Of a stretch of 64,000 nt of DNA, positions 28,378 to 51,203 are shown piece after piece (positions within the stretch are counted from its first letter, which is position 1; each line of letters opens with the position of its first letter). This stretch comes from Natronosalvus rutilus (GTDB taxonomy: Archaea; Halobacteriota; Halobacteria; Halobacteriales; Natrialbaceae), in NCBI RefSeq assembly GCF_024204665.1, contig NZ_CP100356.1, positions 186,001-250,000 on the forward strand. Direction: 5' to 3'. The position numbers were made by a program, and so were the translations under genes. The notes under the pieces are model-generated. The model did no database searches, was not told where the DNA came from, and saw nothing but the letters and a program-made list of their open reading frames with translations.

Positions 28378-28445
28378 TTGTTATAATCTCGGTGAGGTTC
28401 GTATGATATGCTTTCATTAGAATAGAACGGTAGTTTCAACTCCTT

Positions 28446-28823
28446 TCAATTAACGGACTCAAGTAACCCGCTGGAAAACATTCTTCCAATCGCTACAAGA
28501 CAAGCGTGGTAGGAAGTTTTTCGAGTTACCATCACCGTTTTTCGATCAGCGTCGTATTCAAGTATCCCCTTGGTCGCCAATTTTGGTAGATGAACTTGAA
28601 TAAGGCTGTTATACGCTGATTCGTATTCTGAAGTACTGATTTCTCGAGGAGGCCGCTCAAGTTCGACGGCCCTAATAATACGGGCAATTTGACGGACGTC
28701 GACCGTAGTACCACAATCGAACAGCGAGAGGTATGTAATCGTCAAGAGTCGACGTTGATTTCCTAACAGACGATACGTATCCGACACCGGTTGAGTCGCT
28801 TCATCTCTCTTCTCTGTTGTCAT
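28446..28823 (-). CDS. DUF7344-type winged-helix regulator
   Basis: 125 residues: DTYRLLGNQRRLLTITYLSL is the typical opening of haloarchaeal DUF7344 proteins, followed by VDVRQIARIIRAVELERPPR and the wing KLATKGILEYDADRKTVMVT. These are ArsR-like DNA-binding proteins. It lies between the two transglycosylase units on the same strand and is the obvious candidate to regulate them. The leader carries a T-run plus C/G hairpin (28838-28868) like those upstream of the TFB and tnpB-fusion genes. Confidence 0.75.
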   Translation of the reverse strand: MTTEKRDEATQPVSDTYRLLGNQRRLLTITYLSLFDCGTTVDVRQIARIIRAVELERPPREISTSEYESAYNSLIQVHLPKLATKGILEYDADRKTVMVTRKTSYHACLVAIGRMFSSGLLESVN

Positions 28824-28920
28824 TATCGTTCTGAGGGTGACCCCTCACCCATCTTTGGGGGAGAAAAAATACCATGGAGCGAACTGGTAATTACATCAAA
28901 GCGACTGTAAATTACTCACG

Positions 28921-29622: not shown

Positions 29623-29624
29623 GA

Positions 29625-33183: not shown

Positions 33184-36082
33184 ATATTTCGCTCATTTTT
33201 AAGAAGCTATCAGATTCGATTTCACTAGACCCCGTCTCTAGATCTAGGGCTAGGATTCGTTTCGTAGCTTCGTGTCCGAATATTGCGAGACCAAGAAGAT
33301 GTGCCTGTTGCTGTTTACTATTGGAGCTGGCCTGATCGAGATCTTCGTGGATCGTACAGGACTCCAGTAGGTTCTCGATCTTCTGATCAGATACCTTTGA
33401 AAAGGTAATCAGATTTTCTCGGACACCCGAATCGACGCTATCGTATGTTTTGAGCTTCTTCGTTATATCACGGACATTTTCCATATCGATCCCACGCAAC
33501 TGCTCGTTGACGAAACGAGGTGCAACATCTGCTTCTTCGCCCGCTGGTAAGTCATCCAATTTCCGGATAGTTCTGTATACCTGCAACCCCACTTCTCGGA
33601 GATGTGTATCCGTGTCAAATCGAACTTTCGCTGGAAGATCACTAAGTGCACTCTTCGTGAGACGCCCTCCGATATCGAACGGGTGAGATCCTTTAAGGAT
33701 CTCATTCAATCGAGGTACATCGACAACGTTACTGCTGATCGCGAATACGTCCCCAAACAGTGACTCGATCGGATCGATGAAATCGAAAATGTTCGTAATT
33801 CCGTCATAGGTTTCCTTGTCGGCAAAATCCTTCAGCATTTCATCTAGGTCATCGTCTATCTCAGGTCGTGTGTTGGCGGTATAGAGCGACGAAAGTCGTT
33901 TACCAGTAACTTGCTGGCTCGGATCAGATAGAATCGCCAGTACTCCGTATGCGCTCGCGACGAACTCTTCAAAAGTACTATTCCGATGACTTGTCCCGTA
34001 GAAGTATTTTGGAGCCAGATACGCGCCACGAACGTGTTCCTGCCATTGCTGAGCGTAGCCGGCGAGTTGTGATCCGTTTCGATCAAACAACTCTTTGTAA
34101 TCGGCTCGGCTCGGATCCAGATCTCGCGTGATACCGAACTTGAGTAGTTTCAGAAGCTGTGGATGGGTGAATTCCGTTGGATCGATCTGAATTTGATCTG
34201 TTTCCGCTGGTCCACCATCGGTGAAGGTGAAGGGGTGGCGTTCGCTCCCTACTAACACTTCCAAATCGCCGTCAGGAAACATCTCGAATCCATTTGTAAG
34301 TCGATCAATCGCGTCCGTTAACCCTCGTTTAATGTACACATCCACCTCTGAGGCCTTCTGATTCTGCGTGTCCGATTGCCACGTATCGATGTGCTTTCTG
34401 GCTTCATCGTAGCGCTCCTGAACCGGATCCTTTTTGTTTTCCTTTATATCGCCATTGCCGCCGCCAGATATCGCTCCCTCCGTCAACGGGATAACAAGAG
34501 TGTCAACTCCGTCGATTTCAGTTCTCGTGATATCGTACTCTTCAAAGAGTTCTGGCTCGTCGATTCCGAACGCTCTAGCGAATCGCCGATCGACAGTCAC
34601 TACGCTCTTGCCGTCCATCTCTTGCTGTGCCCCGTACCACTGTGCAAGCCGTCGAAGGGGTTCGTTTTCGTAAATGTCCTCGTTGTCAAGTACAATCGAG
34701 TTGGACAGCACGTCATCGATCTCACTCCATGCAGCAGGGACGGTCACATCTCCGTGATAGTACGCACTCAGAATCTTCGAGATCGTCTGGATGTATATTC
34801 GGGGTCGCTGCTCTTCATCGGGCAACCCTTCATATATCCGATCAATGAACGTCTCGTTGAATGGGAATACGTCCCTAAACGTTTCGTCGCAGAACGTACA
34901 CCGAGCGCAGATACTTTGATTCTTAGGTTGGCGAAGTTCACTTTTCCGATCTTCGTCGACGTACCTGACGCTGTTATCACGATTTTTTACGTAGCCGAGA
35001 AACGGTCGGGCGAAATCCACTGCCGAGTCCTCATTCAAGAAGAGGACATGATTGGAATCGCGCTTATTGGTTCGGTAGAACCGGATCCACTCACGATCCT
35101 TTGCTGTGTTCGTCTCTAGGGTGCGTGTCGATTCTTGTGTTCCTGCGATGATGAAATCCCACGTGTTCTCGGGGGAGTCCTGTTCGATGTACTCCTGTAG
35201 TCGTTGAGCATCGAGCGCCGAGACAGAGAAATCTTCGAAGACGAGAACTGGGCGTTCGTCGAGATTTTCAGCAACTTCAGCTAAAAGTGAATCCATTGTT
35301 GGTGTTCCGTAGTCCTGACGGATTGCTGTCCAGATAGCCTCATTCCAATGTTCAGCTGCGGTTTCGTCATCCACGTCCTCGAACACGTTGAGGAAGTTGT
35401 ATTGTGCTATCTCGTTGGCTTCGTCGGAGACGGTAATGAACTCAATTTTCGTTGCGAACTCTCCCCGTTGAGCTAACTTCGTGATTTTTTTCTCGATGAA
35501 GTCGATGACGTCGTCTTCTTGGTCGTTGGTCAAGTCGACTGTACTACTATCCAGATCTGCAATCGTGAGCATCGCCCCTGACGTGATACGCTTTGCGACG
35601 AGACCTCGGTGCTGTCGAACCTGTCGCCTCAGTTTCTCCAGTTGATCCCTCTCCTCTAACGTGTCCCCTCCTGAGACCCGCTCATAGAAGTCCGGGATCT
35701 CCTCAGCCATGATTGTAAGCAAATCCGCATTCTTATCGATGTGGAGGACATTCCGCCCCGCCTCTTTGAGTTCTAACGAAAGATACGCACAGAGTTCGGA
35801 TTTCCCTGTGCCGACGTTCCCGTCGATTATCGTGACGAGATTCCGTCGACGCTGCTTCAAGAACTCGGAGAGAATTTTATCTTCCTTGACTTCCCTCTCC
35901 TCTCCGCTGTGTTTCTCGAATACTGTGATCGGACGATGGGTGAACCGGAACAGATCTGGCCGATCAGACCGAACCTTCGCGACCTCACTAAACAGATCAT
36001 CAAAGAGTTCTTCATCGATTTTCTGATAGTGAGGACACAAACTCCCGTCAGGCGGTGAGACCTCTGTAATTTCAGTAGTCAT
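33170..36082 (-). CDS. 970-residue P-loop ATPase (DpdH-like?)
   Basis: Walker A GNVGTGKS at 88-95 (IIDGNVGTGKSELCAY) and a Walker B-like VLVFEDFSVSAL near residue 280. A C-x2-C-x2-C cluster (CARCTFC) sits mid-protein. The N-terminal HRPITVFEKHSGEEREV segment precedes the ATPase core. The remaining ~600 residues are helical and unrecognised. It is the middle gene of a three-gene operon (1-bp gap from the winged-helix gene, 14-bp overlap with the coiled-coil gene). The set resembles DpdG-DpdH-DpdI of bacterial 7-deazaguanine islands, but the DptF or PbeABCD ATPases of phosphorothioate systems are an alternative. Confidence 0.7.
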   Translation of the reverse strand: MTTEITEVSPPDGSLCPHYQKIDEELFDDLFSEVAKVRSDRPDLFRFTHRPITVFEKHSGEEREVKEDKILSEFLKQRRRNLVTIIDGNVGTGKSELCAYLSLELKEAGRNVLHIDKNADLLTIMAEEIPDFYERVSGGDTLEERDQLEKLRRQVRQHRGLVAKRITSGAMLTIADLDSSTVDLTNDQEDDVIDFIEKKITKLAQRGEFATKIEFITVSDEANEIAQYNFLNVFEDVDDETAAEHWNEAIWTAIRQDYGTPTMDSLLAEVAENLDERPVLVFEDFSVSALDAQRLQEYIEQDSPENTWDFIIAGTQESTRTLETNTAKDREWIRFYRTNKRDSNHVLFLNEDSAVDFARPFLGYVKNRDNSVRYVDEDRKSELRQPKNQSICARCTFCDETFRDVFPFNETFIDRIYEGLPDEEQRPRIYIQTISKILSAYYHGDVTVPAAWSEIDDVLSNSIVLDNEDIYENEPLRRLAQWYGAQQEMDGKSVVTVDRRFARAFGIDEPELFEEYDITRTEIDGVDTLVIPLTEGAISGGGNGDIKENKKDPVQERYDEARKHIDTWQSDTQNQKASEVDVYIKRGLTDAIDRLTNGFEMFPDGDLEVLVGSERHPFTFTDGGPAETDQIQIDPTEFTHPQLLKLLKFGITRDLDPSRADYKELFDRNGSQLAGYAQQWQEHVRGAYLAPKYFYGTSHRNSTFEEFVASAYGVLAILSDPSQQVTGKRLSSLYTANTRPEIDDDLDEMLKDFADKETYDGITNIFDFIDPIESLFGDVFAISSNVVDVPRLNEILKGSHPFDIGGRLTKSALSDLPAKVRFDTDTHLREVGLQVYRTIRKLDDLPAGEEADVAPRFVNEQLRGIDMENVRDITKKLKTYDSVDSGVRENLITFSKVSDQKIENLLESCTIHEDLDQASSNSKQQQAHLLGLAIFGHEATKRILALDLETGSSEIESDSFLKMSEIYANQ

Positions 36083-36083
36083 G

Positions 36084-36947
36084 TTAAGTTATCCTTAGAT
36101 AGTTTTTCGCCTTCGAGATCCCACTGTGGGACGGAATTCCCGGCAGTTCGAATCCTGAAGGATCGCCACGTTTGGTGACTTTCAGCTTTCCGTCCGAAAC
36201 CAATTCGTACAACGTCCGGGCGAAAGGAGCGGGGAGCGCATTCTCTGAGGAAGTCGGGATTCGTAGACAATTGTCCTCAAGCCATTCCAGATATTCAGAA
36301 AATCCAACTCCGTCGCTTTCGCCCACTTCTTCGGCTGCGAGCGTGATAGTCCGCTCGATGAGGTTTGGATCGAACCGAACGATGAATGCGCTTCGTCGGC
36401 CGGATTTGTAGCCACGAATAAGACCCAGATATTCGGCTTGATTTGTCCAGTGAGAAAATTTCGTACTATTCAATTTCATTCTCCCTTTCTGGGATTGCGG
36501 TTCGTATCCAACGTCGACGTGCCAGTTGTCAATTTTCCTAATAAGGCCCTCATCGGTCTGTACGAAGCGATTTGTCCCTTCTTTCAACAAATATTCGAGA
36601 TTCAGCAGTACTGAGGACTGCAATCCCCACTGCTGCGGTGAGCACTCCGCTGCAACTGAGTTTAAGATGTGAAGACGGAACTGGAGATTAAAATCCACCG
36701 CATCGAACGCCAGAGGGGTTAACGTATATTCAAATTCAGATTTCCCTCCTAAGTTAAAGATCCGAAATCCTTTCGTGATTAACTCGACCGTGTCATCTTC
36801 GACACAAAGGATGTCTTTCAACTCCGATTCAGTCTTCGAACCGTTTTGAATCGCACGATAGGCGACTTCCAATAGCGTGAGATTTTGCACCTCGTTCAAC
36901 GCGTACGCCCCTGTCGGCATCGACACATTAGTTTCCCCACTGCTCAT
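36084..36947 (-). CDS. Winged-helix protein, first gene of ATPase operon (DpdG-like?)
   Basis: 287 residues. Two winged-helix-like regions are visible: TLLEVAYRAIQNGSKTESEL ... YTLTPLAF at the N-terminus and LIRKIDNWHVDVG ... EYLGLIRGYKSGRRSAFIV in the middle. The C-terminal part has APFARTLYELVSDGKLKVTK, another wing-like segment. It starts an operon whose next gene begins 1 bp after its stop. Divergent promoters with the 37099 gene occupy 36948-37098. Sequence-specific or modified-base binding is plausible but unproven. Confidence 0.65.
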   Translation of the reverse strand: MSSGETNVSMPTGAYALNEVQNLTLLEVAYRAIQNGSKTESELKDILCVEDDTVELITKGFRIFNLGGKSEFEYTLTPLAFDAVDFNLQFRLHILNSVAAECSPQQWGLQSSVLLNLEYLLKEGTNRFVQTDEGLIRKIDNWHVDVGYEPQSQKGRMKLNSTKFSHWTNQAEYLGLIRGYKSGRRSAFIVRFDPNLIERTITLAAEEVGESDGVGFSEYLEWLEDNCLRIPTSSENALPAPFARTLYELVSDGKLKVTKRGDPSGFELPGIPSHSGISKAKNYLRIT

Positions 36948-37098
36948 ATGATCCGACTCGCTACCGCGATCGATCGGGGGCGGTGGACAATATCTATCGA
37001 CAATCCGGATCCGTCAGCCATATCTTCTCTATATTAGACCATCAACTTATGTTTATTGCTTAATACTATGACGATACTATTGTCAAACAAACATCAAG

Positions 37099-37824
37099 AT
37101 GGGGACAAATATATGCTCTGCCACACCCAACGATTTGGATGTGTCTGAATCGGCATCCTTCCCAATCAGTGATTCTCTGACTGTACTGGATGGGGAGACG
37201 ATCTACCGGACTGACGAATGGCATAAAGCAGCCGTGCTCTATACCCATGAGGATAAAAATTCGGATTTCTCTGATCCCGAACTCGCAATTTATCTTTGGC
37301 ACAAACGGGATGGGAAGTGGGGACGAAAGCAAAAATACTCGATCCGAACCGCTGACGGCTGGAAGGAAGACCGGGAAGTGTTGGAACAGTTATTGAACGC
37401 ATTCGACGGAGAGATCATTTCGGGCGAATTCACCGATCCAAATGCTGAGCTTCCGGTGAGTGATTACTACAATGTCTCCACTGGCATAACCGTCTTCAAG
37501 ACGAACCGGTGGTGGAAAGCGGGAGTTGTAATTGATGCGAAAGGTGAGTACGAGACGACCGAGGTCATCCTCTACGTCTGGCAACGATCGGACGACGAGT
37601 GGAAGGTTCGCCAGAAATACGCGGTGAAGCGCCCAGGCGACTGGAAAGATGATCTGGAAGCACTTTCACCGTTGCTTGACGAACTCGAATCTGGAGCGGA
37701 TGTAACTTCTGATGAGGTTGCTAATAACGACACCCCTGCCGCCGATAGGCAGATCGACCGCGAACGCCTTCAAAAGGCGATGGAGCGTCGGCATCTCACG
37801 CGTGAATTGGCCGATGCGAACTAG
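37099..37824 (+). CDS. Protein with duplicated Trp-rich domain
   Basis: 241 residues. Two internal repeats align: IYRTDEWHKAAVLYTHEDKN ... IYLWHKRDGKWGRKQKYSIR (about 35-105) and VFKTNRWWKAGVVIDAKGEY ... LYVWQRSDDEWKVRQKYAVK (about 130-195). A short basic tail (RERLQKAMERRHLTREL) follows. No family is recognised. It is the only plus-strand gene inside the 25-51 kb block and is divergent from the winged-helix/ATPase operon. Promoter-like AT-rich sequence lies about 30 bp upstream. It may be a partner or regulator of the surrounding defence genes. Confidence 0.65.
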   Translation: MGTNICSATPNDLDVSESASFPISDSLTVLDGETIYRTDEWHKAAVLYTHEDKNSDFSDPELAIYLWHKRDGKWGRKQKYSIRTADGWKEDREVLEQLLNAFDGEIISGEFTDPNAELPVSDYYNVSTGITVFKTNRWWKAGVVIDAKGEYETTEVILYVWQRSDDEWKVRQKYAVKRPGDWKDDLEALSPLLDELESGADVTSDEVANNDTPAADRQIDRERLQKAMERRHLTRELADAN

Positions 37825-37845
37825 GGGCGGTCACTACCGGGAACC

Positions 37846-38778
37846 CTATTTCTCTCCTGTGGCTTGATCCAACCAACTGGCTAACCGTCTTTCCACAGGA
37901 TTCGACACCTCCAGCACATTGAGATACGATCGGGCGTCGTCCATCGCGGCCATCTCCTGTCGAAAATGCGGATCGAATAACCCTTCTTTTCTACGAGCGA
38001 GGCCATTGAAGTAGGTGGCAATCTCTCGTCCCTGATGATAATCCAATTCCACTCGACGCCGAAGCCATTTGGCGAATTCGATTCGTTGGTCTTCATTAAG
38101 GAGGCGCGTTCCTTGTTGCACATCGGTCATAAAGATATCCGAGAACGTTCTCCATATCGGTAGATACGGCGCTTCTGGAAGTATCTCGAAAAATTTGGGG
38201 AGTGAACTGACTCGTCTCCCAGTCACTTCCTCAAACAGTAATGCATTCTCTTGGACGAATATGTTTAGTGAGTGCTTCACAGGAAATTGATAGCCAAACT
38301 CTTCGTATCTCGTCTCGAATGCCTCGTAGACCCGATAATAGTTCAACTCTCGTTTGAGGAAATCCATTTCTCGAAGCGGCCGGATCGTGCCACTCATCTG
38401 GAAATCCTTCGACCCCGCACCGACGATCATGCGAGCACTACTTCGGGTGTAGGAATTGATGATCGAGCTGAGACTAAAGAGGGGAAGTTTGTCCTCATAA
38501 TATTGGTCGCTGATAGCAACGAGGTCACGTTTCGGTGGAATCTCGACGTCATCCATATGAACGAACTCTGGTGCTTCGAGTTCGAATTGATTCGTCTCCC
38601 ACTGGTCGACCTTCTGCCAGGATTTAGGACAGGTCATCCGATCCCAACCCAGTCGAAACAGAGCAGGGTATTTGCGGAGGGCGCATAGTTTTTCTCGCTT
38701 CTCCGACCGATACAGTTCGTCATAGATGAAATACACTCCTGGTTCCTGCAATGCTCGATTCAGAGTTTTCCATTTCAT
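37846..38778 (-). CDS. 310-residue protein downstream of the DEAH helicase
   Basis: No catalytic motif is recognised. Visible features are a GYQFPVKHSLNIFVQENALL segment, SSARMIVGAGSKDFQMSG and many aromatic residues. I looked for the HxKxxxxD signature of phospholipase D (DpdK or DrmC) and did not find it. It starts 18 bp after the helicase stop, so it shares its transcript and likely its function. Confidence 0.6.
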   Translation of the reverse strand: MKWKTLNRALQEPGVYFIYDELYRSEKREKLCALRKYPALFRLGWDRMTCPKSWQKVDQWETNQFELEAPEFVHMDDVEIPPKRDLVAISDQYYEDKLPLFSLSSIINSYTRSSARMIVGAGSKDFQMSGTIRPLREMDFLKRELNYYRVYEAFETRYEEFGYQFPVKHSLNIFVQENALLFEEVTGRRVSSLPKFFEILPEAPYLPIWRTFSDIFMTDVQQGTRLLNEDQRIEFAKWLRRRVELDYHQGREIATYFNGLARRKEGLFDPHFRQEMAAMDDARSYLNVLEVSNPVERRLASWLDQATGEK

Positions 38779-38796
38779 TGGCTATCTTGTCAATAT

Positions 38797-41700
38797 TTAT
38801 TGTTGCGCTTCCAATAGAGCGAGGAGCATCTTCCGGTGGAGGAGGTCGTTTTTAAGGTAGAAACCGGGCGTCCGTTCTAAGAGTAGACACTGGTTACAGA
38901 ATTGATTACATTCATCACAGTTGCCAACTTCTCGCACCCGCTTTTCGAGTTCGTTCGATTCAATGATCGCCTGTGAGACTTGCCACGAGATGCCGTTTCC
39001 ACCCTCTCGCCCGTCGGTCACGTAGAAATCCAGCGACGAATCTGTCTTCACGGCCTTCACATCAAAGTCCCCAAGGTCACATTGGGCGATTACCGCGATC
39101 GTTTTAGCGAATGCTTGTTCCAGACTCACCATGGCTTGTGACCACGATGCCGTGGGTTCTGTACTGGCAAATTGTTGGTATCGTTCTTCGATCGGTTCCA
39201 AATCAAACTCCAATTTGATCCCATTCGTCCGCATTTGTTGACCTACTGGTGCATACTGCTCAGAACTTGACTCTTCAATCAGGTCGTCAAGATCCATATC
39301 GTCGAAATTCGCCTCGTCTTCATTTTCAACATCGATAACTCCCTGTGACTCGACCAATTGCAGGTCACTCCCGCGATTGTGGGCGCGTTCGAAGGCTGGC
39401 ACAAACGAAAGCGTTTCAAACTGCGATGAGATCAGCGAACAGTCCAACCCGAATAGCGTCGCCTCCGTGACTTCACGATCCGCGGTCGATCGAATCTCCT
39501 CGAGATACGTGGTCACGATGGGATACGTGCGATAGTCTTGTTCGAAAGGAGCGGCCGACCGGCACTGCACGGATCCGATTCGATGGACGGCTGTACGTTC
39601 CAACTCCTCTCCACACAGCGGACATATCCCCCGGCTTTCTTTGTATGCTCCGTATGGGCGCTCACATTCTTCGTTTGTGCAGAGCCCGACTCTCGTTAAT
39701 CGTTCTCGGGCTTTGACGTCATCGACTATGTATTTCGTGCCCAAATAGACAACCTCACCTCCCCGATCGTTTTCTGGACCTGGAAACATCTCGAAGAGAC
39801 GGCCACTCCCCTCGAATTGGATATCAGCTTGTCTGCTGCTTCGGTAATTGACTGGGAATTGGCCTCCAAAGGATCGGTAGTTCGCGAGATAGCCTAATTC
39901 CTTCAACCAGAGATCGAGTCGATTGAGATTGGAGGAGAGGGTTTCCGCGGATTTTCCCGATACATCTAATCCCTCCATCTCGCCAAACGTCCGTTCACCA
40001 CGCTGCTTCATGCTGTATCGACTGTCGGTGCTGAACACTTCGTCAAAAATGGGGCTTGCTTCTGGACCGAACGCTTCCACAACCCAGTCTTTTACATCGG
40101 GGCGTTCTTCCTTGATGTATCTGCGAAGCGTAACGAGTCGTTTCAGAACGTTAGTGCTGAAATTTCTTGGGCTGCTCGTCGATTCCGTCAGTTGATACAC
40201 TTTATCGAGGACTGACTTGCCCCCTTGATTCCGCGCCAGATATCCAACTGCTTCTGTGACGATTTGCCCAGCGAGAAGTTCGTCGAACTCAACTGGATTC
40301 GGAACTCTCACCGGATCATACGAGGAGAAAAAAGCATCCAGGTTCGCGAAGTAATGCGTATCTACTGGGTTCGATGATCGTACTGCGGTTGTAACGAGTG
40401 ACGCACTCCCCTGAGATCGGCCAGTCCGACCGCTTCGCTGTACGTAGTTCGTCAGTGTAGGCGGGATTCCGACCTGTGTCACCGTATCGAGCGTTCCGAT
40501 GTCGACACCCAATTCCATCGTTGGGGTCGCACTGACGATGTTTATCTCTGGATCCGGTTGCCGAAATCCCTCTTCGATTGATCCTCTGAGTGCAGCTGGC
40601 ATATCACCCTTGTGTTGACCGACGACGACCGGCTCCAATTCCTCGTTTTCCGTGAATGGTGAGGAAATATCGTGCCCCCAGTGATCGACCGCGTAGTCCC
40701 ATCCAGTATCAATATCGGCATATCCTTTTCCGACGTATTCTCCCTCCCTAACCTCGAACCGGTCGTATACATCGGTCGCCTGCCGGCACTTGGGACAGTT
40801 GATACCGATGTCGGTATCCATCTGCTTTGCAGGCATCGCCGTATAACAGTTTAGACAGTACGCGACGGAAGGTACCAGACGAAGTCGGGACTCGTCGTTC
40901 TGCAACTCTCGCTTGAACACACCACTTCCAATCTCCCCCTTGAAAACGTCAACCTGGTCTAAAACCGCCTGCTGTTTTTCAAGATACGCCTTCGTCGTCT
41001 CCACGGGCGCATTTCCGGATTGATTTTGGAGTTCTTCGTGAACCTCGTCGTCGGTTCGGGCGCGAATAGCGTTCACTTCATTGAGGTCGTCCAATATCCT
41101 CGGGAGAGACTGCTGAACAAATTCTTCTTCGAATCGGTAGTTCCGGTGGATTCTCGATTCCAGTCGTTCGAACGACCATCCTTGAATCTTTCTCCCGTCT
41201 CGAGTAAATTTGTATCCTGGATCCTGCGCGAAGGTACGGTAGACCACGTGAGCAAGCGCCAGTTCCCTACCCGAATACGACTGGAAGATCGTCTCCGGTG
41301 TCACGAGTGCTGCATTTAGAAGATGGTTACAATTGTGAAGTGACGCGTTATTCCGAATCGAACTCAACAAGTCATTCAAATAATCCTCTACATTGGAACC
41401 ATCTGGTGCATTCGAGATGAGGGGTTCGTAGTAGACCTCTCGAAGTTCGTCACGGATATCGTAGAACAACTGGGTTGTCTCCTTGGTACCCTTGTTCTCC
41501 ACGAGGTGTTTCACGTACAGCGTCTCCGCCATCAGGAGGTACTCCTGGTCTCGGATGTTCCTTGCAACGCTTTCGGAGGTACTTCGCGAGTCCGAGAATA
41601 CAAGCGTTTTCTTTGAGGGTGCTAACCGGCAAAGTTCGGTAAGCATGAACGTGAGCAGCGTCGACGTTGGGACGTTAATGTCCTGCGTGTTATGCGTTTT

Positions 41701-43548
41701 TTCACAACCCGGACAGAGGGATGCAGTTGGATGCTCGAGTGGTCGACCCCCATCTTCCTCATTTTCAACGACGTAGGGATAGTGGCATTCTCGACAGAAT
41801 TCCAGTTCCGGCAGATTCGAGTGACATGACGGGCACGCCTTCTGTCTTCTAACAGCACTACAATCTCGACACCAATATGCATTCGACGGCGGTTGTAAGA
41901 AGACGTGGTACTTATCGGTCAATAATCCGGCTAACCGGCCGAACAACAGCAGGGTATTGAGTACTAACTCAGGATCCTGCGACTCGTCCAACTCCGACCG
42001 AACATCTGCAAGTAACCCATCGTATCGTCTAAATCTGACCTCTCCAGTGTCCCCTTCGAGTTTCGACGCAAGTTCGGCAACCTCTGGGACGTGTCGTTCG
42101 ATATGCTGGCGCCATCGGGCCGTGAGACCATTTGAATCCAATAGTGTCTCCGTCACCAGATCCAGTGTCTCTTGATTCTCGATTACGTCCAGCCCTGTTT
42201 CGGCCTGTGGGTACGACTCTTTTAAGGAGTCCACTTCCTCTAAAATGGGGCTGACGAGCCACGATCGAACCTCTGATGGGATCGATATAGCGTTCGATCG
42301 TATCGTCAGAAGATTGACCGCCGCCAGCGTTGCCCGTGCGCTGGCCATTTTAGGAAACTTTGCCTCAAACGCATTCACTGTGTACTCTCCTTTAGAGACG
42401 ACGTAGAGCGTCGCCACGATTTCGTCTAACGTGCATGGATGAATTTTAGTAAAGTCAGCCGTTCCACCTGATGGAAGCGGCTCGGGAGTGAATCCAACCG
42501 AGTTGATTTCTTCCATTGGGGTTCTTGTCAATTTGCTAGCAAGCTCGGGAGGGTTCTTAACGGTTGCAGATACCATTGAGATTTGCGGATCGCTATCCTC
42601 GTAAAAGTGCTTCAATCGTTGTGATAGAAGTGAAATTGCGGCACCTTTGATCCCACTCCATACGTGTGCCTCATCGTATACAATGTGCTGAAGCGGGTGC
42701 TCTCCTGGATTTTCGCCGATGATGTTCCGCGAGTCACGGCGGTCGTTCACGTAGAGGAAATCGAGCGCTTCTGGATTCGTAATCAGAATATCGACACTCT
42801 GACTCTGGTTATCTGCTCGGATGCCATTCCGAGTAACTCTTATCCACGAATACTCCTCGGTATCGGTACCGACTCGGTAGTCGTCGAACACACGGAGTTT
42901 TTCCTTGGTTCGTGGACAGACAAGCCCACGAATCGGGGATCCTGGCTCAACTTCGTTTGGTTGATCCCCAACAGTGTTGTCGGTATCACCATCCCAGATT
43001 CCAATTTTGATCTTCTCTCCGGCCGGCCGATCTCGATTGACTGCATCAAGATACTTGATAAATCTGTTCAGTTGGTCGACCTCAAGCGTCTTCATTGGAT
43101 AGATGATGATGCCTTTGAGCCCATCTTTGTCGATTTGAATACAATCGTTGAGTAATGGGATAAAGAACGATTCCGTCTTCCCGGTCGCTGTTGGTACCGC
43201 GAGGATATTGTCATTCTCGTCTCCTTCGATCGCCTTGATCATCTCTGCCTGGTGTTGATATAGCGGGAGTGTGGGATCGCCATCGAATAGAACATTAGCG
43301 ACCGCATTGATAGCCGATGGATCGTAGTTCAACTCGGATAGGAATGCTTCAGCGGATTGAGTATGTGATTTCGGGGTTCGAACGTACTCGACGTATGGCC
43401 CTTTCTGCTCAACCAGTTGATCGTCGACAAAGGCTTTTGCATTTCCGAACTGGTCGAATTGGTTCAGCTTTGTGAGAGAGCGGTTCCACCAGATAATTTC
43501 GTTTGCACGGTCAAGGGCGCCGTCTAACGTTTGACGAGGTGAATCCAT
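38797..43548 (-). CDS. DEAH-box helicase with cysteine clusters and DUF1998-like end (DpdJ/DrmA-like)
   Basis: 1583 residues. Helicase motifs: Q-rich LYQHQAEMI, motif I VPTATGKTES (118-127), Ia IIIYPMKTLEVDQLNRF, DEAH box IVYDEAHVWSG, SAT (SMVSAT), then motifs V/VI SATPTMELGVDIGTLD and NYVQRSGRTGRSQG. There are several zinc clusters: CRDC...CPSC...CREC, CLNC...CPKC, CTNEEC...CPLC. The C-terminus has CDECNQFCNQCLLLERTPGF, typical of DUF1998/MrfA-type helicases. Such helicases are motor subunits in DISARM (DrmA) and in dpd islands (DpdJ). It leads a two-gene transcript with the 310-residue protein. Confidence 0.85.
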   Translation of the reverse strand: MDSPRQTLDGALDRANEIIWWNRSLTKLNQFDQFGNAKAFVDDQLVEQKGPYVEYVRTPKSHTQSAEAFLSELNYDPSAINAVANVLFDGDPTLPLYQHQAEMIKAIEGDENDNILAVPTATGKTESFFIPLLNDCIQIDKDGLKGIIIYPMKTLEVDQLNRFIKYLDAVNRDRPAGEKIKIGIWDGDTDNTVGDQPNEVEPGSPIRGLVCPRTKEKLRVFDDYRVGTDTEEYSWIRVTRNGIRADNQSQSVDILITNPEALDFLYVNDRRDSRNIIGENPGEHPLQHIVYDEAHVWSGIKGAAISLLSQRLKHFYEDSDPQISMVSATVKNPPELASKLTRTPMEEINSVGFTPEPLPSGGTADFTKIHPCTLDEIVATLYVVSKGEYTVNAFEAKFPKMASARATLAAVNLLTIRSNAISIPSEVRSWLVSPILEEVDSLKESYPQAETGLDVIENQETLDLVTETLLDSNGLTARWRQHIERHVPEVAELASKLEGDTGEVRFRRYDGLLADVRSELDESQDPELVLNTLLLFGRLAGLLTDKYHVFLQPPSNAYWCRDCSAVRRQKACPSCHSNLPELEFCRECHYPYVVENEEDGGRPLEHPTASLCPGCEKTHNTQDINVPTSTLLTFMLTELCRLAPSKKTLVFSDSRSTSESVARNIRDQEYLLMAETLYVKHLVENKGTKETTQLFYDIRDELREVYYEPLISNAPDGSNVEDYLNDLLSSIRNNASLHNCNHLLNAALVTPETIFQSYSGRELALAHVVYRTFAQDPGYKFTRDGRKIQGWSFERLESRIHRNYRFEEEFVQQSLPRILDDLNEVNAIRARTDDEVHEELQNQSGNAPVETTKAYLEKQQAVLDQVDVFKGEIGSGVFKRELQNDESRLRLVPSVAYCLNCYTAMPAKQMDTDIGINCPKCRQATDVYDRFEVREGEYVGKGYADIDTGWDYAVDHWGHDISSPFTENEELEPVVVGQHKGDMPAALRGSIEEGFRQPDPEINIVSATPTMELGVDIGTLDTVTQVGIPPTLTNYVQRSGRTGRSQGSASLVTTAVRSSNPVDTHYFANLDAFFSSYDPVRVPNPVEFDELLAGQIVTEAVGYLARNQGGKSVLDKVYQLTESTSSPRNFSTNVLKRLVTLRRYIKEERPDVKDWVVEAFGPEASPIFDEVFSTDSRYSMKQRGERTFGEMEGLDVSGKSAETLSSNLNRLDLWLKELGYLANYRSFGGQFPVNYRSSRQADIQFEGSGRLFEMFPGPENDRGGEVVYLGTKYIVDDVKARERLTRVGLCTNEECERPYGAYKESRGICPLCGEELERTAVHRIGSVQCRSAAPFEQDYRTYPIVTTYLEEIRSTADREVTEATLFGLDCSLISSQFETLSFVPAFERAHNRGSDLQLVESQGVIDVENEDEANFDDMDLDDLIEESSSEQYAPVGQQMRTNGIKLEFDLEPIEERYQQFASTEPTASWSQAMVSLEQAFAKTIAVIAQCDLGDFDVKAVKTDSSLDFYVTDGREGGNGISWQVSQAIIESNELEKRVREVGNCDECNQFCNQCLLLERTPGFYLKNDLLHRKMLLALLEAQQ

Positions 43549-43898
43549 GATGGAGAGGTTACGTGAATGAAACCACTAACAGTACATTAGTGTTGTTGCG
43601 GTTACGGATTTGATTAGCGGCAACTTCCCATTTTGCCATTCAATGGCCCCGTGAGTCGCCATATAACGTTGAGTTTAGGTATCTTTAGGTTCCCTTTGAT
43701 GGCGTTTAGCTCTCTGATGATACGAATTGCTCGGATTTGCGGCCAAAATCCTTCCACTATGACGCTCTGAGTCCTGGATTTCAGCCCTGAAAGTCGACAC
43801 TTCCTAGTAATTCAATAGAGCCATGGGTTTAGATACCTCAGTGATGTGCTGTGTTGAATAGACTGACGGCGTCGGGATAGGCCGTCAAATCAGTAAAG
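43549..43898. other. Gap before IS5-type remnant
   Basis: No gene is visible. This is probably the left part of the degenerate insertion sequence that follows, plus the promoter of the DEAH helicase gene (minus strand). Confidence 0.4.
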
Positions 43899-44739
43899 AT
43901 GAAGCTGAGGAAATCGATTATGGTGGAAGTCGATATCCTCGGCTTCGTTGAGATATTTAAGCGGCTAGCCAAACAAGCGGGCGAGCTCACTGGAAGCACG
44001 TCGTCATTCACGGATTTCGACGTGAGGAGGAACGTAGCTTTCGTGAAACCGAGAACCGGCTGAAGTATATAAGTGAAATTCGGGATGTACTCGAACTGGA
44101 GAAGGAAGATATTCCGGATTACACAACTCTGAACAAGCCGTTTGATCGGTTCAAGATGTGGGTCTGGCGGGCGTTGCTGCGCGTTTCGGCGCAGCAACAC
44201 TCGTAGTCTAAATACGCCGCTCTTGACAGCACGTTCTTTGATCGCGGGTACGATTCCGTGCACTATCTCGGCCGGTCTGACCGAACGGTCGAAACAATGA
44301 AAGTGACGATACTACCGATACAACGTCGATAGCCGTCCTTAGCGTGCAGTGCCACGCCCAGTGGCATCACGATACGAAGACTGGGCGGCGTCGTCCGCCG
44401 GAATGCGGACGATCTGCAATACTGTCGCTGCTGACAATAGCTTTCAGGACTGGCATTCCGAGTGCGACTTTTACAGGTCGGTGTTGAGCCGTTGATTCAC
44501 TACAGTGGGGTTTGATCGAATACCCATCGCCGACGACGGAGCGATTCGTCTGCGAACGCTGTCAACAACACGCTCATCCGAGAACACGACTACACCCAGC
44601 TGGATGGCTGAAACATCGTACTCGTCTGTCAAGCGCTCGCTTGGCGAAGCCCTACGTGCGCGAGATGGTATCGAGAGTTCCGTGAAATCGTCCTCATGTT
44701 CGCCATCTTGAACATCGAATTACTCCGTGAACCACTATG
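43899..44739 (+). pseudogene. IS5-family transposase, decayed
   Basis: Pieces in shifting frames match ISH-type IS5 transposases: KRLAKQAGELTGSTSSFTDF, YISEIRDVLELEKEDIPDYT, FDRFKMWVWRALLRVSAQQH, ALDSTFFDR, a shifted VRRNADDL, and MAETSYSSVKRSLGEALRAR plus REIVLMFAILNIELL at the end. Several frameshifts and stops make it inactive. It sits exactly between the helicase unit and the McrBC-like pair. Confidence 0.8.
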
Positions 44740-44803
44740 ATCCCTATGCCATACCCCTACATCGTGATGGATGTTGGCAAGTGGTTTTCTATGCTTGTAA
44801 CAA

Positions 44804-46198
44804 TCACAGGATCCGACCCGGGGAATCCGGATATTGGACTATCTTGATTTCCTCGTTGGGTGGCGACACTGTTTCCTGGTCGAGTTCGTCAACGAACAGT
44901 ACCCCTTTGACGTTCACCGAGTCGAGGACGTTCTCCGCCCTCTCGACGTACTCACTTGTCGACTGGTGCTTAACGAACGCCATATATTCAAGTAACTCAC
45001 GCAGGCCAGTCGCCACATAATCGATACTTTGCGTGTATTTTACCTCGCCGATGAATACCTGAGCGAGTTCCTGTTCACCATCCGACTTTTCCTTATATTG
45101 TTCCAGTACAATATCGGGACGTCCTCCCCACAAAACGTCTCTTCCACCGTGATCCAGCATGTCAGAAGATAGTGACTTCCTCCGACAGAGTACTTCGTTC
45201 ATCCGATAGAGATACCCATCTGGTTTGACATTTTCTGCATCGATCGACTCTTCGAACGTGAGATTCTCTCCCGTCGCATCGTGATATAGGGCGAATCGTG
45301 AGTCTCGATGTTCCCACGTGGCGATTGTCGAGGTATCGTTCTGGTTATCGGTCAACACCCGATACTCGACGCCTTCGTAGGCGTCCAACACCCGGAACAC
45401 CCAGTATAGTTCAAAGAGAATCTCGGCTTTATCAGGGGCAATAAGCGTGTGGTCCAGAATGTCCCGAGCTTCAACACTATCCAGTTCGTGACTCATTAAC
45501 TGACGATATCGATCCAGAAGTATCGCTGCCTCTCGATAGAATTTAGACCGTGACCGCTTGACCGACTCAATAGTTCGTTTCGAGATCTCCGTCTCATCGA
45601 CCTTAATCCGCTGCAAATAGATATTCTTCTGGTAGATTCGATCAAACATATCCGCGGTGGATTCTTGTTTGCGACCGGTAGGACTGAAATCCGACTGAAC
45701 CCACGCCTCGAGCCACTCGTAACCATTAGGGTTGTTGCGGGCATATGCCAAATCCTCTGTGACAGTGTCATAGACGACGCTCAATAATCGCTTCAACACC
45801 AGATTCTCGTCGATATCATAGTGAACCTTTGGACGGTCACACACAAAAATCGGCTCGTCAAGTCGACCTACTCGGGCACGACGTTTCACCGTCTCAGACC
45901 AATTTAGCTGCCCACGAACCTCACCATGATGCTCGGACGACTGTGGCGACGTGGAGGTCTTCATTCGGCGGATACGCGCCTCTAACTTTCGCATAAAATC
46001 CACTACTCCCACGTCATTTCCGCCACCTTCGGCATCAGTCAGCACGAAATGAATCCGGAGCAGTGTTTCGATGTCGTCGATGTCGAGCTCCTTATGTGCC
46101 GATCCGATTACTCGGTCGAATCGGACTCCCTTCCGGAGATAGGTATGGAAGCTGTCGGCAATCTCTTCGAGCAGCCTCTCTACAGTTGCTTTGGCCAT
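44804..46198 (-). CDS. mcrC: McrC-like PD-(D/E)XK nuclease subunit
   Basis: About 464 residues from the ATG at 46198, which lies 5 bp after the McrB stop; an in-frame upstream ATG at 46261 would overlap McrB. The nuclease core is GRPDIVLEQY ... FIGEVKYTQS (D ... E-x-K) followed by GLRELLEYMAFVKH. The N-terminal half is helical with LDEPIFVCDRPKVHYDIDEN. McrC proteins supply the nuclease for an AAA+ GTPase McrB ring; gene order here fits that. Similarity to DUF2357/McrC-like families is likely, though overall sequence is divergent. Confidence 0.75.
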   Translation of the reverse strand: MAKATVERLLEEIADSFHTYLRKGVRFDRVIGSAHKELDIDDIETLLRIHFVLTDAEGGGNDVGVVDFMRKLEARIRRMKTSTSPQSSEHHGEVRGQLNWSETVKRRARVGRLDEPIFVCDRPKVHYDIDENLVLKRLLSVVYDTVTEDLAYARNNPNGYEWLEAWVQSDFSPTGRKQESTADMFDRIYQKNIYLQRIKVDETEISKRTIESVKRSRSKFYREAAILLDRYRQLMSHELDSVEARDILDHTLIAPDKAEILFELYWVFRVLDAYEGVEYRVLTDNQNDTSTIATWEHRDSRFALYHDATGENLTFEESIDAENVKPDGYLYRMNEVLCRRKSLSSDMLDHGGRDVLWGGRPDIVLEQYKEKSDGEQELAQVFIGEVKYTQSIDYVATGLRELLEYMAFVKHQSTSEYVERAENVLDSVNVKGVLFVDELDQETVSPPNEEIKIVQYPDSPGRIL

Positions 46199-46203
46199 CC
46201 TGT

Positions 46204-48423
46204 TTATCCCTCGTTGTTTTGCTGGAGATCCATCTGGAAGAAATCGCGTGCGACCGTCCACAACTCTTCCGTATCTCCACTCACAATTGATTCTAATCGC
46301 CCGAGTAATCTTTCCAACTCATTTCGTCGCAACCCCTCCAGTTGCGGAAACACATACATAATGAGTGGAGAGACGTAATCTGCAGTGTCCCGGGACGAAG
46401 CCGTCGCCACGTGTGTGTAGATGTCCTCGATAATTGCCGGTCCAATCACCCTCTCTTCATTAATTGCACGCCAGATACGACCGACTAGTTCGTAATGGTC
46501 TTCAACCTCGGGTATATCGCTGGTTTCCGACCACACACTAACGTACTCTCCCACCAACGCCTGCAGCGCCGCATCGTCACCATCCTCTTGTGGCGGGAGT
46601 TCGGGAACTCCGACCGGAACGAACGCCCACCGACGCATGAACGCGTAACTCATCTCGTAGAGTGAGGTTTTATCGAGCGTGTTCATTGTCGCGAGCATCT
46701 GCCAATCATTTGGAATGTAGAATCGACTAGGCCCGATCTCCTGATCCGACCGCGATGCATCCAGAATTTGTATCGGCTCACCATCCGATCCATTAAACGG
46801 GAGTGTGACAGTCTCGCCGGTCAGCGCCGAAAATAGCGATCCGAAGGCTTTGTCAATATCTGCTCGGTTAAGTTCGTCGATTATTAGCCACTCGTTCGTA
46901 GGGGCCCCATCTTTCTCGTTCTTGAATCGATCTAATACTACTCCCGGTTTGAATTCTAGAGTATTCTCGGAAGTTGTCTGGTATCCACCCACGGTGTCGA
47001 ACGTCGACCAATCTGCCGATGCCGTGACGAGTTCGTACTTCTCGTTAACCGTCCCCTCACATATCTGCTTGGCCAATTTCGTCTTTCCCGTTCCAGGTGG
47101 GCCGAAGAGGAGAACGTGATTCCCGGACTCCAGCGCTTGGTATATTCGAGAGCGAATGCGTTCCCACTCCTCGTCCGGGAAATGCAGGTTCTTTCGCTCA
47201 ACTCTGATCTCCGATTCCGGGACTGACAAGTCCTCCTCGTAGTCCGCAAACGTTGTTTTCTCGCTCAACTTCAGAATACGCTCGAACTCCTGTTCAGTGA
47301 GTTCTGTGACGACAAAACTATTCCCGGAATTGACGAGTCTGCTGGATTCTAGTTCGCCATCAGATTGTATTTCACTCCAACTCGCCCCATCTAACGATTT
47401 GTCCCACTGAAGCGTGATCCCCTCAATCGTTTCCTCACTCTCATTTCTAGCTTCTTCGTGTACTCCTTCTGCAACGTGGCCTCGACCCACAATCTGCCTC
47501 GTTGGCGAGATCTGATACACTAGAACCTCATCGCCGGAACTAGCGTTCCGATACGCCGTCAGGTTCCTACGGTCACCTCCTTTCTCGTTCGTTAGACTGT
47601 AGAACGTTTGTTGACCTTCTCGATGCCAGTTTGTCGCTTCGGAATTCACCCAAAAGTAGCGCTTTGTATCCTCGCCTCCTATCTCCGGGTCACTCTCCGA
47701 ATCAACCCGGGACAACAGATCATCCAGTGAAAGCAGTTCCTCCCAACTCCAGATCATCGTCTGGACATGAAGCATCGAGGCATCCTCCACCCGTCCAATG
47801 AGTTGTTTTCGGATTTGCTCGCAGGCCTCGTTCAATTGCCGATACTGGCTCTTGTTGAAACCTTGTCGAACCGTGTATCCCGCAAACTCGTCGAAAAACT
47901 CCCGCATTTCCGTCCATTTATAGTGAACGTGCCGATCTGGATGAACGAACATCAGCAGGCACGTTGCGAGCGCGAGAAGAGAACCTGGGGCCGTTTCAAT
48001 GGCATCATAGTGCTCATGAAAAGTTTCGAGCCTCTCCACGATATCCTCACTGGGATCAAAAAAGAACGAGAGTATCTCGGCTGTTACAGTTGGATTATCC
48101 CGAGAGATTTCTTTGAAGTCCCTCCACGCAATTCCGCCGTTGGCACCGCCACCAAGCATATACACCGGAATCCGACTGTCAATACTCACTGGCTCATTGA
48201 GAACGGCAAGTAATTGCTCAATGTCTTCTGAATCTAATTCCGTAATTTCGAACTCATCTAAAAATTCGGTTTGTATATACTCGTGATAGTCCCACTTCCA
48301 CGTTTCCCAACCTACGGATGTGTCCGCCTCTTGCTTGTATCCTCCCTCGTTCCACACGTCTTCGAACCGTGTGAGCAGTTTGTCAATCTTTTTAAACCCA
48401 ATCACGTCATCGGATCCACTCAT
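46204..48423 (-). CDS. mcrB: McrB-like AAA+ GTPase with internal EVE-like domain
   Basis: 739 residues in three parts. The N-terminal ~235 residues are helical with no family call. Residues ~255-375 (RYFWVNSEATNWHREGQQTF, then SSGDEVLVYQISPTRQIVGR, GHVAEG) match the EVE/YTH-like base-reader fold. The AAA+ core has Walker A GPPGTGKT (441-448), Walker B WLIIDELNRAD, and the McrB hallmark MNTLDKTSLYEMSYAFMRRW. EVE-McrB fusions recognise modified bases in DNA and activate the McrC nuclease. It heads the operon with the McrC-like gene. With preQ0 genes close by, a deazaguanine-modified base is a reasonable candidate ligand (inference). Confidence 0.85.
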   Translation of the reverse strand: MSGSDDVIGFKKIDKLLTRFEDVWNEGGYKQEADTSVGWETWKWDYHEYIQTEFLDEFEITELDSEDIEQLLAVLNEPVSIDSRIPVYMLGGGANGGIAWRDFKEISRDNPTVTAEILSFFFDPSEDIVERLETFHEHYDAIETAPGSLLALATCLLMFVHPDRHVHYKWTEMREFFDEFAGYTVRQGFNKSQYRQLNEACEQIRKQLIGRVEDASMLHVQTMIWSWEELLSLDDLLSRVDSESDPEIGGEDTKRYFWVNSEATNWHREGQQTFYSLTNEKGGDRRNLTAYRNASSGDEVLVYQISPTRQIVGRGHVAEGVHEEARNESEETIEGITLQWDKSLDGASWSEIQSDGELESSRLVNSGNSFVVTELTEQEFERILKLSEKTTFADYEEDLSVPESEIRVERKNLHFPDEEWERIRSRIYQALESGNHVLLFGPPGTGKTKLAKQICEGTVNEKYELVTASADWSTFDTVGGYQTTSENTLEFKPGVVLDRFKNEKDGAPTNEWLIIDELNRADIDKAFGSLFSALTGETVTLPFNGSDGEPIQILDASRSDQEIGPSRFYIPNDWQMLATMNTLDKTSLYEMSYAFMRRWAFVPVGVPELPPQEDGDDAALQALVGEYVSVWSETSDIPEVEDHYELVGRIWRAINEERVIGPAIIEDIYTHVATASSRDTADYVSPLIMYVFPQLEGLRRNELERLLGRLESIVSGDTEELWTVARDFFQMDLQQNNEG

Positions 48424-49094: not shown

Positions 49095-49793
49095 CTAATC
49101 TGATGAGAAACTAGGTCGTTCAGCGTACGTGATTGGATCCCTCGAGCCAGCATTACGGAACGCCTCAAGTCGTAAAGCACAGGAATCACACGTCCCACAC
49201 GCTGGTTCGTCGTCCCGATAACACGACCACGTGAGTTCGTACGGGACGTCGAGCTCAAGACCGCGTTCGGCGATATTTGTTTTCGACCACTTGACATATG
49301 GTGCGACGAGGTCGATTTCTGTCTCGGGTTTTGTCCCGACGTCAATGACCTTTTGAAAGGCATCAAAGAATGCTGGCCGACAATCCGGATACCCCGCGAA
49401 ATCTTCCGAGTGAGCACCCATAAACACTGCTGCGCAGTCGTTTGCTTCGGCATACGAGATAGCCATGGCTACCAGATTCGCGTTCCGAAACGGGACGTAC
49501 GACGTAGGAATTTCATCGCTTTTGAGGTCAGTGTCTGTAACTTCCATGTTCTCGTCAGTAAGGCTTGACGCCCCAATCTTCGAGAGATGGCCCGTCTCAA
49601 TATGGAGGAAGTCCGCTGCGTCAACTTCATTCGCCAATGCGTTTGCACACTCGTATTCTTTGGTCTCGGTTCGCTGTCCGTATGACGTATGCAAGAAATA
49701 TGGCTCGTATCCACGGGCAATCGCTTCGTAGACTGCGGTTGCGCTGTCCATACCCCCGGAGACCAGAATCACTGCACGTTTGTTGTTACTCAT
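49095..49793 (-). CDS. queC: 7-cyano-7-deazaguanine synthase QueC
   Basis: 232 residues. The ATP-pyrophosphatase loop SGGMDS is at 12-17; FLHTSYGQRTETKE and TSYVPFRNANLVAMAISYAE are conserved QueC segments; the zinc site is C-x8-C-x2-C-x2-C (SCYRDDEPACGTCDSC). It converts 7-carboxy-7-deazaguanine to preQ0 with ATP and ammonia, last step of the pathway. It overlaps the folE stub by 8 bp. PreQ0 feeds archaeosine in tRNA in all haloarchaea and DNA modification in dpd islands. Confidence 0.97.
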   Translation of the reverse strand: MSNNKRAVILVSGGMDSATAVYEAIARGYEPYFLHTSYGQRTETKEYECANALANEVDAADFLHIETGHLSKIGASSLTDENMEVTDTDLKSDEIPTSYVPFRNANLVAMAISYAEANDCAAVFMGAHSEDFAGYPDCRPAFFDAFQKVIDVGTKPETEIDLVAPYVKWSKTNIAERGLELDVPYELTWSCYRDDEPACGTCDSCALRLEAFRNAGSRDPITYAERPSFSSD

Positions 49794-49938
49794 GAGTATC
49801 AACTGCCGAACGCCCTACTCGATCAGGGTTCTCTCCCAGCGCCTCAAGTAGCATACGCGTGGCGCGTTGGGCTTTCTGCCGGGTAATACCGGATGACTCG
49901 CTGTTCTCTGTATTCGGCTGATGCTGTTGTCTCGTCAT
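49786..49938 (-). pseudogene. folE: GTP cyclohydrolase I (FolE) N-terminal stub
   Basis: ATG at 49938 overlaps the queE stop by 4 bp and opens a 50-codon frame: MTRQQHQPNTENSESSGITR followed by QKAQRATRMLLEALGENPDR, the amphipathic opening helix and GENPDR turn of FolE. Where EGLxxTPxR should follow, the frame runs into VGRSAVDTHE and stops inside the queC start. About 75 per cent of a normal FolE is missing, including all catalytic zinc ligands. It looks like an internal deletion that joined the folE start to queC. Confidence 0.6.
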
Positions 49939-50711
49939 GTTCCTGGTTCGTCGTTCCACAAATCGACGTGCAATCGGGGCGTGTAGCGATAGCCACGTTC
50001 AATCGCCAACTCAGCCACGTCGTTTCGTTTCTCGTCCAATTCTTCTCGCGTCATCCCTTCCGGCATCAGTAACACATCGTCGTTGGCAACGCTCGTGTCG
50101 GCCTCCTCTCGGATTTGGTCGAACAGTTCGTCAATTTCGGACAGATCATCCGGGTCGGTAACGACGAACTTCAATTGGCTATCGTACTCGTCGATCAAGT
50201 TTGCGAGCGCCTCAAGATTGATGCGCCGTTTTTCGTGGCGCATCTCCCATTCGCCGTCTCCTTTCGGATCACGGGTTGGTATGGGCGTACTGCTCGAGAG
50301 TTTCGGGCTAATACTCGCCAAATCAATCGCTGCATCTCGATAGACGGTGCCGTTGGTCTCGACAGTTGTGTGATAGCCGTACTCCGCTAATTCATCTAAG
50401 AGGCGAACGGATTGCTCGTGGATCATCGGCTCTCCGCCAGTCAAAACCACGTGGTCGGTATTTTCGTAGCCACGGACTTCGTCGACGATATCGTCAATCG
50501 AAAGCCACGCTCCGGTCGGTTCCCATGAGGTGTGATAGGAGTCACAGAACCAACACCTGAGATTGCAGCCGGATGTCCTGATAAATACTGAAGGGACACC
50601 GGCGAGTTTACCCTCTCCCTGTAACGAGTAGAAGAGTTCGTTTATCGGCAGACCCTCTCCCTCGACGTCGTCATCAGAAGCGAGCCCTGAAACATCACTT
50701 GCAACCGGCAT
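49935..50711 (-). CDS. queE: 7-carboxy-7-deazaguanine synthase QueE (radical SAM)
   Basis: 258 residues. Radical SAM cluster C-x3-C-x2-C in CNLRCWFCDS, preceded by LFYSLQGEGKLAGVPSVFIR, and TGGEP motif in VVLTGGEPMIHEQ. The enzyme contracts 6-carboxytetrahydropterin to 7-carboxy-7-deazaguanine. The first ~20 residues are an acidic extension. Its start overlaps the queD stop by one base and its stop overlaps the folE stub, so the four genes are one transcript. Confidence 0.97.
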   Translation of the reverse strand: MPVASDVSGLASDDDVEGEGLPINELFYSLQGEGKLAGVPSVFIRTSGCNLRCWFCDSYHTSWEPTGAWLSIDDIVDEVRGYENTDHVVLTGGEPMIHEQSVRLLDELAEYGYHTTVETNGTVYRDAAIDLASISPKLSSSTPIPTRDPKGDGEWEMRHEKRRINLEALANLIDEYDSQLKFVVTDPDDLSEIDELFDQIREEADTSVANDDVLLMPEGMTREELDEKRNDVAELAIERGYRYTPRLHVDLWNDEPGT

Positions 50712-51172
50712 CAGTACGTAGCGCAGAGCTCACTCGTCTCTCGAACGGTCACCGAAACTTCCGATACATTATCGGGGAACGTCTCGAGCATCCGTTCCTC
50801 GAGGAGAACCGCCATCACTTCGGCCGTTGGGGGGTGCTCGAGTATAATAAGCGAATCAGCGTCTCCTGATGCTTCAAACGCCTCGATTAGAGGATCTCCC
50901 TTTTGGACGATAAATCGATGGTCCCAGTGGTCGATGACGTCAGTCACGGCTCCTTTATCTACAACCCAGCCCTCATCGGAGAGCTGACCGGTGATTTCAA
51001 CGGTGATTTCGTAGTTGTGACCATGTGGCCGTGCACATTTACCATCGTGATGTAGAATTCGATGACCCGTGCTGATTCGTATCGGTCTATCTTCGCCGAT
51101 TAGAAGAGTTCTCTCACCAGATGCGTGAAGAGGAAGGCCATCTGGATCCTCTTGAGATATGCTATGAGTCAT
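50711..51172 (-). CDS. queD: 6-carboxytetrahydropterin synthase QueD
   Basis: About 153 residues from MTHSISQEDPDG. Active-site elements: zinc ligand H in ISTGHRIL, catalytic C with HGH in GKCARPHGHNYEI, and DHWDHRFIVQKGD with EHPPTAEV. It makes 6-carboxytetrahydropterin from dihydroneopterin triphosphate, first committed que step. The ATG at 51172 was preferred over 51196 because a TATA-like CTTATATG on the minus strand lies about 27 bp upstream of it. First gene of the queD-queE-(folE)-queC transcript. Confidence 0.95.
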   Translation of the reverse strand: MTHSISQEDPDGLPLHASGERTLLIGEDRPIRISTGHRILHHDGKCARPHGHNYEITVEITGQLSDEGWVVDKGAVTDVIDHWDHRFIVQKGDPLIEAFEASGDADSLIILEHPPTAEVMAVLLEERMLETFPDNVSEVSVTVRETSELCATY

Positions 51173-51193
51173 ACTTGGAGCATACTTGGAGAG

Positions 51194-51203
51194 CATATAA
51201 GCT
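51194..51203 (-). promoter_or_regulatory. queD: TATA box of the que operon
   Basis: AGCTTATATG on the minus strand. Between it and the ATG at 51172 lies a tandem CTCCAAGTATG repeat that could be an operator or chance. Confidence 0.35.

Follow-up and report, generated by a model that had tools for sequence, protein, structure and literature searches.

A predicted EVE-McrBC restriction system placed among 7-deazaguanine genes in Natronosalvus rutilus

When an McrBC gene pair lies among genes for 7-deazaguanine DNA modification, is it a part of that machinery or a restriction system of its own? Natronosalvus rutilus, a salt-loving archaeon, carries an island that raises this question. It was analyzed over 64,000 nucleotides (positions 186,001–250,000 of the forward strand of NZ_CP100356.1, assembly GCF_024204665.1; hereafter the window) and compared with 293 haloarchaeal genomes of the host's order. 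The window contains mcrB and mcrC as two intact ORFs on the minus strand. An earlier note on this DNA had located the pair beside preQ0 genes, with a dead IS5 element between it and a helicase. ORF and Pfam analyses placed these genes, QueC, QueE and QueD, where they had been claimed, and the IS5 element is indeed a frame-broken transposase remnant. One 81-aa piece of it shares 68–85% identity with IS5 transposases of haloarchaea, its Pfam match to DUF772 is below threshold, and no other copy of it was found in the genome. The best reading of our results is that EVE-McrBC is an autonomous Type IV restriction system beside a Dpd-like locus (Table 1). It is an ordinary kind of system; what is interesting is its placement.

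Domains and motifs of McrB and McrC

The same note had proposed an EVE-like reader between the N-terminal region and the AAA+ core of McrB and had asked for a structure prediction of it. This domain is real. Pfam EVE (PF01878) matched isolated residues 240–410 with 25.0 bits (cut-off 23, E 2e-5) and was found in 13/13 aligned McrB homologues; in a scan of full-length McrB it was not among the best 25 families listed. A profile of the window EVE found the EVE structure 1zce in the PDB (2.5e-6). The AF2 model of the domain alone (mean pLDDT 70.6) was submitted to Foldseek, which ranked EVE proteins first. In a structural alignment, Z was 14.7 for 2gbs, 14.4 for 1zce and 13.4 for the human THYN1-5mC DNA complex, and EVE structures including 2eve aligned with Z 13–14.7. 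The structural alignment spans model residues 15–152, which correspond to McrB residues 254–391; the reader is thus longer than the residues 255–375 first given for it. AF2 on full-length McrB, with five sequences, gave an unusable model (pLDDT only 40.5).

The C-terminal part of the protein was matched by AAA_5 over residues 436–598 (65.8 bits), and its profile matched E. coli McrB (6hz4) in a PDB search with 9.4e-12. Walker A (GPPGTGKT, 441–448), Walker B (IIDE, 514–517) and the signature NTLD (581–584, NxxD) are kept in 8/8 aligned homologues, with a single conservative change within the Walker B stretch. The window McrB is, as judged from these motifs, a canonical NxxD McrB GTPase. Membership in the CoCoNuT systems, which are defined by an NxD signature variant and coiled-coil fusions (PMC11090510), was considered and ruled out, because NTLD fits NxxD and not NxD. 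As a separate observation, residues 1–230, the N-terminal domain, recur in haloarchaeal proteins that stand alone and have no recognised function (L104–L108; about 450–490 aa, 31–33% identity), where they make up the C-terminal half.

At its full extent the McrC ORF covers 44804–46261 on the minus strand (485 aa). In most close relatives the start is the equivalent of ATG 46198, located 5 nt past the McrB stop codon. Alignment of 11 McrC proteins revealed a PD...ExK motif, P382-D383 and E406-V-K408 in the numbering of the 485-aa ORF, with D383, E406 and K408 invariant. None of the 11 members had a Pfam or PDB sequence match, and the N-terminal DUF2357 was not detected in them. The McrB-McrC pair is present in all close relatives examined, and the McrB frame of one of these is interrupted by a TAA codon.

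Together, these data support an EVE-family domain of the modified-base-reader type, fused to a McrB GTPase and paired with McrC, and the system is predicted from its sequence to cut, probably, modified-base DNA. The domain might instead act on RNA, as do CoCoNuT-type or eukaryotic EVE/YTH readers, since its fold also matches YTH domains (Z about 9). We regard this as a long shot: EVE structures score far higher than YTH, the signature is the canonical NxxD and not the NxD of CoCoNuTs (PMC11090510), and the partner McrC has the PD...ExK nuclease motif.

Table 1. Features of the EVE-McrBC region, in window coordinates.
Feature	Position	Strand	Basis
McrB: N-terminal domain, EVE and McrB-type AAA+ GTPase, 739 aa	46204..48423	-	ORF, Pfam, alignment
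McrB residues 1-235: N-terminal domain without Pfam family	47719..48423	-	alignment; also in standalone ~460-aa proteins
EVE domain (proximal reader), McrB residues 254-391	47251..47664	-	Pfam, 1zce profile match, AF2 model
McrB GTPase, residues 411-735	46219..47193	-	Pfam, alignment, PDB profile match
McrC-like nuclease, 464 aa from ATG 46198	44804..46198	-	alignment of 11 McrC, start codon
QueC, QueE, QueD (preQ0 synthesis), upstream of McrB	49095..51196	-	Pfam
IS5-family transposase remnant, several frame breaks	43862..44740	+	similarity, Pfam
Helicase operon: YprA/DUF1998 helicase (38797-43548), 310-aa, 287-aa, 970-aa NTPase, coiled coil	32491..43548	-	
Modification module: BrxD-like ATPase, 299-aa, TGT-like, DpdC/DUF6884-like, DpdA	25134..31829	-	

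Reader domains of related McrB proteins

Every relative that shares the window EVE carries further N-terminal modules and is hence a longer protein; one relative with two readers has 877 aa. Where the N-terminal domain is of the window type, the added sequence consists of a single domain of 130 aa immediately ahead of the EVE, and its profile picked the EVE-HNH endonuclease VcaM4I (6yex) with 4.2e-6. VcaM4I is a 5mC/5hmC reader whose Q10, E15, Q128 and Y130 are located in or beside the flipped base (PMC7897488). The WVNQ...E and QAYL motifs of the extra reader align with these four residues in most members; W82 and P24 are not obviously common to them. Relatives with other N-termini vary: some have the VcaM4I-like domain, others carry the EVE twice, and others have modules unmatched by either profile. 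At least two readers per McrB are the rule among relatives; in the window McrB just one reader is recognised, and the VcaM4I-like domain is lacking. It is the only member of the family with one recognised reader and no other recognised module except the N-terminal domain. Across this family the EVE is constant beside the GTPase and the upstream modules vary, a VcaM4I-like reader being among them in most cases.

The remaining EVE was compared with VcaM4I at the 5mC/5hmC pocket positions (Q10/T11, E15, P24, W82, Q128 and Y130). The two share the EVE-type fold; however, the window profile aligned only over the N-terminal third of VcaM4I, with N-S in place of Q-T, the window EVE does not appear to share the Q10, E15, Q128 and Y130 positions, and the nuclease is a different one (PMC7897488).

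The second reader was probably lost in the window lineage, because more distant McrBs also possess the VcaM4I-like domain. One relative of the host's own genus has both readers. The gene tree gave no firm placement of the loss and did not separate it from the domain never having been present. Such a loss could have left McrB blind to modified DNA, the system being inactive or passively carried, a reading with which its solitary single reader in the family and the adjoining decayed IS element are consistent. We consider this unlikely, since the GTPase and nuclease motifs and both reading frames are intact and the residues invariant in the family alignment are retained in the EVE. The window McrB would be a natural deletion variant, and the comparison of reader sets predicts which domain sets specificity.

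EVE-McrB/McrC has been reported as the commonest EVE architecture in defence, in nearly 300 bacterial and archaeal genera (Bell et al. 2020, PMC7641849). The window system is like these in its EVE fused to a McrB GTPase and in its McrC partner; it differs by the added N-terminal domain, and its close relatives by the added VcaM4I-like reader. As described in the passages that cite it in PMC7641849 and PMC7897488, the McrBC of Thermococcus gammatolerans has a YTH-like N6-methyladenine reader. Like the window protein, this archaeal McrB has a modified-base reader of the PUA superfamily; the window domain, however, is nearer to EVE than to YTH (Z 13–15 vs about 9).

Relationship of EVE-McrBC to the 7-deazaguanine genes

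In the window, EVE-McrBC is flanked by QueC and the YprA helicase, and all are on the same strand. This setting had led the earlier note to suggest that the EVE might read deazaguanine DNA as non-self or be blocked by it. The system could then work within the 7-deazaguanine machinery and, if blocked by the host mark, cut unmarked DNA. The distribution of the genes does not bear this out. Close EVE-McrB was found in 11/293 genomes, and window-type DpdA occurs in one of these 11, that of the window itself, vs 34/282 of the others (p=1). DpdA is likewise present in 10/84 genomes with McrB GTPases and in 25/209 without (p=1). The ten other close EVE-McrB genomes yielded no window-type DpdA, in searches directed, among TGT-like proteins, at this DpdA alone; the DpdA query matched 35 genomes, and the last search covered three genomes and had no positive control of its own.

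Inspection of loci gave the same picture. McrBC is absent from 20 helicase-operon regions and from the other DpdA regions viewed, which gives a sample of about 25 loci with DpdA or with preQ0/helicase genes; the regions were about 20 kb or less, four of the DpdA regions were viewed over about 20 kb, and two were cut short by contig ends. Genomes with the helicase operon have McrB slightly more often than those without it (11/22 vs 73/271, p=0.028, among six tests without correction). The closest parallel is genome G207, where an McrBC with a different reader set, which includes a VcaM4I-like reader, lies about 17 kb from the operon. No avoidance of C5-cytosine methyltransferases was seen in EVE-McrBC genomes (6/11 vs 128/282, p=0.56).

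The usual neighbours of EVE-McrBC are other defence genes. A PDDEXK_4 (PD-(D/E)xK) nuclease gene adjoins it in 8/13 sampled relative loci, and an AAA_14/DUF4143 gene and pAgo lie near it in several. EVE-McrBC therefore occurs in different defence islands. In some relatives the interval between QueC and the helicase is occupied by a second helicase, and in another by genes of no relation, so the window site looks like an insertion into a variable slot. These results suggest that EVE-McrBC and the 7-deazaguanine genes are chance neighbours in a defence island and not one machine. Given its position, the p=0.028 excess and the G207 case on one side, and on the other the lack of correlation with DpdA, its absence from the sampled loci, the close relatives without window-type DpdA and the danger that cutting 7-deazaguanine DNA would pose to a host making such DNA, we judge a function of EVE-McrBC within the 7-deazaguanine system very improbable.

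The preQ0 genes instead belong with the YprA/DUF1998-helicase operon and the TGT-like genes, their true partners in a haloarchaeal Dpd-like system. The helicase has DEAD, Helicase_C and MZB/DUF1998 domains (Pfam) and is the first gene of an operon with four genes downstream; this operon is present in about 20/293 haloarchaeal genomes, where QueC is often less than 25 kb away. The five-gene set from BrxD to DpdA, whose TGT-like member has 346 aa, is also recurrent in haloarchaea. As described in PMC12458937, BRIGADE is a haloarchaea-only class that combines Dpd-like genes, a YprA helicase and a 7-deazaguanine cluster, usually with two YprA helicases. The YprA/DUF1998 helicase, preQ0 synthesis and DpdA of the window fit the consulted descriptions (PMC12458937; PMC6884629), but the locus shows one YprA helicase and not the usual two. 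McrBC is not among the components named there, nor was it found in the sampled related loci; EVE-McrBC as a BRIGADE/Dpd component was accordingly rejected, on its absence from about 25 loci and the missing DpdA correlation.

Proposed restriction activity and neighbouring genes

The explanation that we favor, to which we give a probability of about 75%, is restriction of foreign-marked DNA by an McrBC that was inserted into a Dpd-like locus and complements it. McrB would assemble as a GTP-driven hexamer, and its N-terminal half, EVE included, would flip out and read a modified base of incoming DNA. By analogy with known systems, GTP-driven translocation by McrB would then activate the PD-(D/E)xK nuclease of McrC and lead to the cut. 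Reading may fall to the single recognised reader, the VcaM4I-like one having probably been lost. The insertion would have split a Dpd-like (BRIGADE-type) locus, with the preQ0 genes on one side and the YprA-helicase operon on the other, and labour could be divided such that the Dpd-like system attacks DNA without the host mark and McrBC attacks foreign-marked DNA.

From the gene content we infer that the host DNA contains 7-deazaguanine. The EVE is unlikely to recognise this mark of its own host and would be indifferent to it. A base other than 7-deazaguanine is favored because a nuclease directed against 7-deazaguanine DNA should not be retained by a host that marks itself in this way, and because E. 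coli McrBC, which has a different reader, did not cut the deoxyarchaeosine (dG+) DNA of phage 9g (PMC5567051). With both systems in one island, it can be tested clearly how a host tolerates a modification-dependent nuclease while modifying its own DNA. There is a slim prospect that EVE-McrBC was captured as a second effector of the haloarchaeal 7-deazaguanine system, its EVE sensing the 7-deazaguanine state of DNA after the loss of the other reader. It would then sense foreign dPreQ1/dG+ of haloviruses or the missing host mark, and a Type IV nuclease would have been coupled to self-marking of the Dpd-like kind.

From QueD to BrxD, all genes but a 241-aa ORF and the remnant of the IS element lie on one strand, so cotranscription of McrBC with the Dpd-like genes is possible. 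Promoter and terminator scans of the gap between QueC and McrB did no better than shuffled sequence, and a sigma-70 consensus is in any case inapplicable to archaea. GC content showed no abrupt foreign boundary, and viral contigs gave one distant GTPase match, two further scans being empty.

The genome has QueC and QueD in single copy, and their island is located on a 340-kb contig; the tRNA archaeosine pathway therefore probably depends on it. With one full-length TGT and one partial TGT-family match on the 3.8-Mb contig, the preQ0 genes of the window probably also serve tRNA archaeosine. In two genomes of the same genus, no QueC passed the threshold used.

Other genes of the region deserve mention. 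Elsewhere the helicase operon often adjoins TGT-like proteins of other kinds, with about 415 and 660 aa; in the window, DpdA and DpdC are found. A BrxC/D-family ATPase within a Dpd-type locus looks unusual. At 22558–25079, two adjacent paralogues of about 400 aa have PD...E-V-K motifs and no Pfam match, and could be nucleases of the Dpd-like locus; homologues occur in two DpdA regions (L059, L060) and in one EVE-McrBC region (L050). On the opposite strand, 52235–54370 encodes a GmrSD-family Type IV restriction gene (GmrSD_N and GmrSD_C), a second predicted modification-dependent system near the preQ0 genes. Finally, a BRIGADE-like locus (L083, 11942–13498) has, by eye from its sequence, a GHKL/MORC-like ATPase between two TGT-like genes.
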